The notes under the pieces are model-generated. The model was not told the origin of the DNA and searched no databases. It saw only the letters and a program-made list of their open reading frames with translations. Positions 3,513-13,548 of a stretch of DNA of 64,000 nt are shown piece by piece. Source of the DNA: Clostridia bacterium (GTDB taxonomy: Bacteria; Bacillota; Clostridia; Christensenellales; Aristaeellaceae); the NCBI GenBank assembly GCA_017395685.1, contig JAFQOD010000077.1, positions 1-64,000 of the forward strand, given 5' to 3'. The stretch's first letter is position 1. Each line of letters opens with the position of its first letter. The position numbers and the translations under genes are program-made.

Positions 3513-4574
3513 TTAAATTTTGCAGGTCCAGTTGTGGGTATCTTCTGCCTGACCCCACTGAATGGCGGTGAGGGTATCATACAGCTTCTGGGTAAGCGCT
3601 CCGATGCCGCCGTCCGCAATCTGATACCGGGCCTGGCCCATGCGCAGTTCGCCAATGGGAGAAACCACCGCAGCAGTGCCGCAGCCCCAGGCTTCCTTGA
3701 GGGTACCATCCTTTATCGCTGCAGAAAGCTCTTCCACCGACAGCAGCCGCTCTTCCACCTTCACGCCCATCTCATTCAGCAGTTCAATGCAGCTCTTGCG
3801 GGTGATGCCGGGCAATACGGAGCCGGTGAGCTGAGGGGTGACCACCGTATCATTGATCAGGAACATCACGTTCATGGCGCCCACTTCTTCAATATACCGG
3901 CGCTCCACGCCATCCAGCCACAGCACCTGGCTGTAGCCCTCGGCGGCTGCCCGGTCGCCTGCACGCATGGAAGCGGCATAATTGCCGCCGCACTTGGCAT
4001 AGCCGGTGCCGCCGCGGACGGCCCGCACATCCCGGGTTTCGATCATGATTTTTACAGGATTCAGGCCTTCCTTATAGTAAGCGCCCACAGGGGATGCGAT
4101 GATGACAAACTTGGCGTTATGGATGGTATGAACACCCAGGGTTTCGTCATTGCCAAAGAGGAAGGGGCGAAGATACAGGCTGGTGCCGGGGGCGGAGGGC
4201 ACCCAATCCTTTTCCACATTCACAAATGCCTTCAGCGCCTGCAGGGATTCCTCCACAGGGATCTGGGGCAGGGAAAGCCGCTCAGCAGAGCTGTTGAGCC
4301 GCTTCATATTCTCTTCCGGCCGGAACAGCTGCACTTCCCCATCGGGACGGCGATAGGCCTTCATGCCTTCAAAAATTTCCGCACCGTAATGGAATACGGT
4401 GGAGGCAGGATGGAGGGTCAGGGGGCCGAAGGGTTCGATACGGGCATTATACCAGCCCTTATCTGCGGCGTAATCCATCACAAACATATGATCGGTGAAA
4501 TGCTTGCCAAAGCCCAGGCTGTTCTGATCGGGCTTTTCCTTGGGGGTAGCTGTCAGATTGATTTTGATATCCAT
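3513..4574 (-). CDS. ilvE: Branched-chain amino acid aminotransferase
   Basis: 353 residues, usual length for the larger class IV (BCAT2-like) enzymes. It interconverts Leu, Ile and Val with their 2-oxo acids using PLP and glutamate/2-oxoglutarate. Visible motifs: HYGAEIFEGMKAYR near residue 62, LYLRPFLFGND in the middle, GGNYAASMRA carrying the region after the PLP lysine (the Lys in GTGYAKCGGNYA), and VLPGITRKSCIELL in the second half. It is the third gene of the minus-strand operon led by the T-box, starting 17 nt after the preceding stop with an AAAAGGAG site. Context links it to branched-chain metabolism. Confidence 0.93.
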   Translation of the reverse strand: MDIKINLTATPKEKPDQNSLGFGKHFTDHMFVMDYAADKGWYNARIEPFGPLTLHPASTVFHYGAEIFEGMKAYRRPDGEVQLFRPEENMKRLNSSAERLSLPQIPVEESLQALKAFVNVEKDWVPSAPGTSLYLRPFLFGNDETLGVHTIHNAKFVIIASPVGAYYKEGLNPVKIMIETRDVRAVRGGTGYAKCGGNYAASMRAGDRAAAEGYSQVLWLDGVERRYIEEVGAMNVMFLINDTVVTPQLTGSVLPGITRKSCIELLNEMGVKVEERLLSVEELSAAIKDGTLKEAWGCGTAAVVSPIGELRMGQARYQIADGGIGALTQKLYDTLTAIQWGQAEDTHNWTCKI

Positions 4575-8510: not shown

Positions 8511-8795
8511 AAAAAGAAAAAGTCCCCAAAGCGATTACGCTTCAGGGACGATAAAGCATTCTTTACCGCGGTACCACCCTTTTTGCCGCTTGATAATGCG
8601 GCCCCTTCAGGCTCTCTGTGAAGCCCTGCGCCATGATAACGGGGCGTGCCGGAGCGCCTTACTGAATCCCATCCGTTCAGGCACCCTGCTCAGGAGCGAG
8701 ACAGCCCATCCCTTCCATGATTGGCTTGCACCACCCGCCAACTCTCTGCCATGGGGCCGGGATTGCTTAACTCCGTCAAAGCAATTATGGATATA
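8511..8795 (-). promoter_or_regulatory. T-box leader controlling the LeuA-like/AMP-ligase/ilvE operon
   Basis: Read on the minus strand, the leader contains AGGGTGGTACCGCGG (8580-8566), an exact T-box core, then an antiterminator partner CGTCCCT and an intrinsic terminator: GTCCCTGAAGCG pairs with CGCTTTGGGGAC (8549-8522), followed by TTTTTCTTTTT. Upstream, CCATGGCAGAGAG...CATGG (about 8752-8713) resembles the apical Stem I with the AGAGA bulge. Uncharged tRNA binding should allow readthrough. The specifier triplet lies between about 8717 and 8697 on the minus strand; CTC (Leu) is a candidate there but other triplets fit, so amino acid specificity is unresolved. A leucine or branched-chain signal would suit the genes. 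Confidence 0.93.
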
Positions 8796-12487: not shown

Positions 12488-12642
12488 GCCCGGAATTAAT
12501 TTTCACGGCAAAAAGCCGGATATTTTCGCATTATATTTGCCACTTTTCATAATTCTCATCTCATTTTGACCATTTTTTGCCTCAGTCTTTCCTTTTGCAA
12601 TGGATCCTCATGCCTTGAAATCAAAGTGCTGGATTCGCAAAA

Positions 12643-12672
12643 ACAGGGATAAGCATTGCTGCCCATCCCTGT
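12643..12672 (-). terminator. Terminator ending the candidate large RNA
   Basis: Minus strand ACAGGGAT and ATCCCTGT arms (8 bp) around a 14-nt loop, then TTTTTGC. Confidence 0.75.
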
Positions 12673-13355
12673 AAAATTGATCGTTCACATCAGCAGAGAA
12701 AAGAAGGATCAGTATCCTTTACGGTCTATTCTGTTTCAGGCGTTTTTCTTGCTGATCCAACTGGTAAATCATTTATTGTTGAAGAAACTATTGCAATATC
12801 ACCTGGTTTGTAAAATTCCTTTTTCGTTCATCCGCTGTATTCCGTTATTCACAGCTGGACGATTCATTCCTCAGCCGGAATTTCCTTCTGCCTCATGACG
12901 CTGCTTGAAATTCATTCAAATGACACGGTTTCAATGTCTTCACGGTCTATTTTGCCTCACTGCAGGCTGATCCGGGCTTCCGGCAGGAATTTGGGAATAA
13001 AGAGGATACAATGCGTTTTTTTGCTGAGAAAATAAGCTCGGCTTCCTTTCATATTTCTTTCCGCTGATTATTTTTCAGAAATCCGTCTTTGATGCAGCAG
13101 AATGCGGAAAGAAAATGATATCGGTTTCTAAGATCAGTTTTCATTTCCGGGTTTCACTTGGAAAGATCTGAACTTGATGAGCCATCCTTTCAGCCCATGG
13201 GAATCCACTCCTCTTTTCCGGTCGGTTGTCTTTGATTGAAGAAGCCTTATTATCACCGGGGCTTCTATCTTCATGGCGATTTGCCATTTATATTACATGC
13301 TTTTTCCCGTTGATCGGCTTGCCGCTGCCAAGGGAAGGTACGCGCGCCGCCCTGA

Positions 13356-13427
13356 TTACTGAAAAGAAACACCAAAATACGCCGGGGAATCCATCCGTGG
13401 CGGTTCAGCCAAATCCATGTTGTTCAT
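13356..13427 (-). CDS. Possible 23-residue peptide near the 5' end of the candidate RNA
   Basis: ATG at 13427 follows GAGAGGAGGAGATTCCC, a very strong ribosome site, and is open for 23 codons to TAA. The peptide starts MNNMDLAEPPRMDS and ends PAYFGVSFQ. It lies about 85 nt after the predicted transcription start, and is enclosed by GCCCTG before and CAGGGC after, which could pair. It could be a leader peptide, a small protein, or an accident of a purine-rich RNA motif; a similar GAGGAGTGGATTCCCATG at about 13213-13196 opens only two codons. Not recognised. Confidence 0.4.
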   Translation of the reverse strand: MNNMDLAEPPRMDSPAYFGVSFQ

Positions 13428-13519
13428 GGGAATCTCCTCCTCTCATTCAGAGCGGGCGGGCGACAGGGCATGAAATAATTTTTGTTGATTTTTTCCTTCA
13501 TTCTCTTATCTTCGCTTTT

Positions 13520-13548
13520 ATAATACAACCTTTCTGGCAATTTGTCAA
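13520..13548 (-). promoter_or_regulatory. Consensus promoter for the candidate large RNA
   Basis: Minus strand TTGACA (13548-13543), exactly 17 nt, TATTAT (13525-13520). It diverges from the plus-strand promoter at 13626. Predicted start near 13513. Confidence 0.75.

Follow-up and report, generated by a model that had tools for sequence, protein, structure and literature searches.

A candidate gene for a stand-alone RNA carrying ribosome start sites from a gut Clostridia bacterium, and a genus-wide structured RNA of similar layout

The window analyzed here is a 64,000-nt stretch of DNA (contig JAFQOD010000077.1 of assembly GCA_017395685.1) from the genome, denoted G000, of an uncultured rumen-type gut bacterium of the class Clostridia. 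All coordinates are window positions. The minus strand at 13548-12639, between a sugar-alcohol dehydrogenase-like gene and asp23, carries a unit that looks like a small stand-alone RNA gene with its own promoter, ribosome start sites and terminator (Table 1). Downstream, at 12392-10349 (-), an Asp23-family gene and, behind it, a DAK/FakA-like gene were recognized by eye. A T-box leader (106 bits) was found at 8541-8788 (-), upstream of a LeuA/isopropylmalate-synthase-like gene (8484-7066, also by eye).

Table 1 Features of the unit on the minus strand of the window.
Feature	Position	Strand	Basis
Promoter TTGACA-17-TATTAT, A/T-rich upstream	13520..13548	-	sequence pattern
Transcript start and leader AAAAGCGAAGATAAGAG; fits leader pattern common to sub-groups A and B of the genus-wide RNA	13503..13519	-	
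Closing helix, 5' strand (UUCAUGC); one compensatory change vs L002	13468..13474	-	
GC-rich helix, 5' strand (GUCGCCCGCCC); identical in L002	13454..13464	-	
ORF1 Shine-Dalgarno GAGGAG	13437..13442	-	
ORF1, 23 codons, MNNMDLAEPPRMDSPAYFGVSFQ; L002 version: GTG start, VNNMDLAEPPR..	13356..13427	-	
GC-rich helix, 3' strand	13341..13352	-	
Closing helix, 3' strand (GCAUG..)	13293..13300	-	
Second Shine-Dalgarno GAGGAG	13208..13213	-	
Second start, Met-Gly-stop (ATGGGCTGA), +313	13190..13198	-	codons read directly
11-bp complement, first strand (chance level)	13104..13114	-	
11-bp complement, second strand (chance level)	13054..13064	-	
Intrinsic terminator: 13-bp hairpin 12672-12643 + TTTT	12639..12672	-	

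The initial annotation of this DNA had proposed a large structured RNA transcribed from its own consensus promoter and ending at an intrinsic terminator. We confirmed the promoter, which has 11 of 12 consensus matches and is similar to the tRNA/rRNA promoters of relatives. The terminator was confirmed as well (about -21 kcal/mol); its hairpin was not picked up by a simple scan. The interval was also correctly described as lacking a credible normal gene: the longest ORFs on the minus strand of 13548-12645 have 42-48 codons, and ORF1, with its AUG at +85, is the only one with a good ribosome-binding site. The minimum free energy of the unit is somewhat below that of shuffled sequences (z -2.65, n=20 shuffles only).

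The evidence given for an ornate fold did not hold up. The 11-bp long-range complement is present, but 16% of dinucleotide shuffles also contain one exact inverted repeat of this length. Both repeated motifs were likewise found in place, but two or more 10-base repeats occur in 26% of dinucleotide shuffles. We rejected GAGGAG..GATTCCCATG as a structural RNA motif: an exact search of the genus lands on the starts of ordinary genes, where it provides the ribosome-binding site and the surroundings of the start codon. The proposed stems and repeats are thus at chance level or are translation signals. Its two start sites give the RNA more the look of an mRNA than of an ornate non-coding RNA.

The unit had also been likened to OLE, ROOL and GOLLD, which are large ornate RNAs (PMC12286853). 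It shares with them a stand-alone organization, a length of several hundred nucleotides, structure and the lack of a known protein product. It differs in its conserved ribosome start sites and in having far fewer supported helices. Covariance-model searches of Rfam, at gathering and relaxed thresholds, found no family, OLE, ROOL and GOLLD included, in the window unit or in seven related loci. The unit resembles 6S RNA (RF00013) in being a stand-alone regulatory RNA gene, but RF00013 gave no match in it, and canonical 6S has a gene of its own in 23 of 29 genomes, among them G000, where it lies on contig C43. No tmRNA was found in the window with ARAGORN. The size and strong promoter would suit a diverged OLE, ROOL, GOLLD or other catalogued RNA; given the Rfam result and the separate 6S gene, the chance of this is practically negligible.

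We found units between the same two genes in two sister genomes, G022 (locus L002) and G001 (locus L015). Both have a promoter, a short ORF preceded by a Shine-Dalgarno sequence, and a terminator-like hairpin. The window and G022 units are 82% identical over the first ~250 nt (70-90% per 50-column block) and only ~45% identical beyond. Fourfold-site identity between the window and G022 is 56% in the dehydrogenase gene and 74% in asp23. The 5' part of the window unit did not align with L015. A second start, ATG or GTG followed by GGC, is located at +313 in the window, +291 in L002 and +307 in L015. Read directly, it continues as GTG GGC TGC TGA in L002 and ATG GGC TGA in L015, placing the stop at codon three in the window and L015, and at codon four in L002. 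The GC-rich helix around ORF1 is represented by two sequences (window and L002) with few compensatory changes.

These comparisons bear on two other readings of the locus. A decayed protein gene that had retained its promoter and terminator would account for the missing long ORF and for the fast divergence of most of the body between relatives. It would not be expected to leave a first ~250 nt whose conservation exceeds that of the adjacent coding sequence (73% nucleotide identity) or a layout kept in three species, and no parent gene is in evidence; we consider decay very unlikely. A long 5' leader controlling the downstream asp23-fakA genes would fit the shared strand, the 250 nt that separate the end of the unit from asp23 in the window, and the presence of asp23 next to the unit in all three genomes. 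This reading was rejected, and the probability left to it is very slight: the terminator stands between the unit and asp23, and asp23 is preceded by a separate conserved stretch. Most genomes of the genus keep this stretch whether or not they carry the unit.

We searched for further units with a pattern combining promoter and leader, which matched in few genomes and in none of the reversed controls. A start-site pattern then matched once in each of 16 of the 29 genomes of the genus, with zero control matches; in the rest of the family it matched twice, both times at ordinary genes. With a covariance model the count rose to 20 of 29 genomes, one copy each. This genus-wide RNA is ~0.42-0.58 kb long and is composed of the same type of promoter (TTGACA-17-TAnnnT), a near-invariant Shine-Dalgarno/start site with the consensus GGAGGNGANNCCCATGGRYCA, a long-range helix, a 3' hairpin and a terminator. 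The start codon lies about 75-115 nt past the transcript start, or 110-145 nt from the first base of the promoter. The 3' hairpin, CCC-loop-GGGUUnA, precedes the terminator in all 17 members inspected. The genus-wide RNA adjoins varying genes, at genomic places other than that of the window unit, which also speaks against a leader of asp23. At one of its loci (L045, in G014), a transposase-like gene was seen by eye to start soon after the 3' end of the RNA.

The long-range helix, denoted P2, pairs the stretch from +17 to +30 of the ORF with one located at +145 to +250. For each of the 17 aligned sequences, the downstream strand of P2 scores highest among possible partners of the ORF start, and RNAalifold recovers the helix independently. 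Its cells are paired in 89.9% of cases, compared with 44-67% when the helix is slid. Double changes were counted in 16 cells against 6.0 in shuffles, and none of 500 shuffles reached the covariation score. Because related sequences may outscore shuffles of this kind, more weight falls on the slid control and on the persistence of P2 in two members that were not used for training. The genus-wide RNA is truly structured, and no catalogued RNA family was found to match it. In the open-licence literature we found discovery pipelines and ornate RNAs, and nothing describing the genus-wide RNA or the window unit.

Both the promoter type of the window unit and its start-codon distance match the genus-wide RNA. 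Its start site reads GGAGGAGATTCCCATG followed by AACAAC, and the exact consensus pattern had no match in G000. A helix comparable to P2 was absent from the window, L002 and L015, and the 3' CCC-GGGUU hairpin was found in 0 of 3 window-type units. With the covariance model the window scored 14.7 bits, in a match confined to the start site. The E value was 0.0024 when 115 kb were searched and 0.057 genome-wide, where generic start sites elsewhere in G000 ranked ahead. The sequence profile did not place the unit above generic start-site matches genome-wide either. Given disagreement on all four counts (helix, 3' hairpin, sequence profile, covariance model), we did not file the window unit as a member. 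A separate, clade-specific RNA with the same style of promoter and start site would explain these results and the different genomic place. On the other side, the leader pattern is common to the window and sub-groups A and B, the layout is the same, and 51 nt are similar to the L004 start region, at an E value of about 4e-4 per genome and in part through the generic start site. We regard an unrelated RNA as an appreciable possibility, though well short of even. The window unit is thus either a divergent counterpart of the genus-wide RNA or a look-alike that agrees with it in layout and leader.

We constructed a tree from asp23 and part of the next gene. The genus-wide RNA was carried by 17 of 17 placed genomes of one clade and by 0 of 9 in the sister clade; three further carriers were left out of the tree. 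The tree is midpoint-rooted, and the presence of the RNA fits the species tree. Within the sister clade, the three genomes with window-type units group together as a subclade. The covariance model found no canonical copy of the genus-wide RNA in these three genomes, which again argues against unrelated units.

Units with the same promoter and leader and with short ORFs were also seen in Neglecta/Neglectibacter and an Oscillospiraceae MAG (L083 970-2049, L086 488-1412 and L080 4977-5321 (minus)). L083 and L086 contain the mini-ORF CCAATGTACTAA and a covarying hairpin inside the ORF, and 6S RNA adjoins the unit in L080 and L083. All three match the covariance model at the start site only and are therefore kept as leads only. 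A class-wide search with the Neglectibacter element did not find it and returned mostly tRNA/rRNA-type promoters, and a phage search with the same element found none. A search of viral contigs with two patterns gave a handful of exact matches among the matches listed. One chicken-gut MAG contig (L082) carries three near-identical promoter/leader/start cassettes, at 4019, 6209 and 7535, each with a different sequence behind.

Alternatively, the RNA could be an mRNA in which the ORF for a lineage-specific micropeptide of 23-30 residues is followed by a long, structured 3' untranslated region. A strong Shine-Dalgarno sequence and start are kept (ATG, or GTG in L002), the peptide start MNNMDLAEPPR is nearly identical in the window and L002, and in the alignment of sub-group A the start and stop codons fall in common columns, with gaps that preserve the frame. 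However, the ORF1 peptides of the window and L015 differ. Amino-acid constraint was measured on sub-groups of the genus-wide RNA, window-type sequences being too few: N/S was near 1 in E and B (the two values being 1.02 and 1.19) and 0.77 in A, with G (0.43) as the exception, and ORF differences were not enriched at third positions. ORFs of ~20 codons are, by our estimate, expected by chance in such U-poor sequence, and on inspection the peptide is hydrophilic, with signs of secretion or membrane insertion absent. Constraint on the genus-wide peptide thus appears weak or absent while the start site is near-invariant, and a functional micropeptide appears quite unlikely.

Two known systems offer partial parallels. 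SgrS and RNAIII are dual-function small RNAs whose peptides are functional. They share with the RNAs described here an own promoter and terminator, a short ORF with a Shine-Dalgarno sequence and a structured non-coding body, but in the present case the start site is kept while the peptide is weakly constrained or unconstrained. In leader-peptide attenuators, the sequence of the short ORF pairs with a downstream strand, as in P2. The RNA here instead ends at a terminator, its neighbours vary, and no regulated gene lies behind it.

Taken together, the annotated claim of a large RNA with its own promoter stands in part: synteny and the genus-wide RNA back a promoter-to-terminator RNA, but not an ornate fold. 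Judging from sequence, we tentatively read the unit, at slightly less than even odds, as a stand-alone RNA gene with a transcript of ~0.87 kb, a divergent sister-clade counterpart of the genus-wide RNA or one laid out like it, whose most likely role would be to act in trans as a structured RNA that engages ribosomes. This reading builds on the promoter, the terminator, the conserved start sites, the conserved first ~250 nt and, for the genus-wide RNA, the helix with its compensatory changes and the weak or absent peptide constraint, all of which were directly observed. The minus strand of the window would be transcribed into this RNA, and ribosomes would load close to its 5' end, where there are one or two strong start sites. 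The start-site sequence would itself pair within a GC-rich helix of long range; competition between ribosome loading and helix formation could switch or protect the RNA, which would then act in trans. The window unit may descend from the genus-wide RNA. A further-reaching proposal is a new class of ribosome-docking RNA, in which the start site and not the peptide is selected, the helix at the ORF start is opened by the initiating ribosome, and the window holds a divergent form; we consider this unlikely, though worth stating.

A single-copy RNA that no placed genome of a clade lacks, and that combines a near-invariant ribosome start and little peptide constraint with a covarying helix across the ORF start, sits poorly with the usual split between messenger and non-coding RNA. 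The genus-wide RNA provides 20 examples for asking whether ribosome loading may itself be the working part of a bacterial regulatory RNA.
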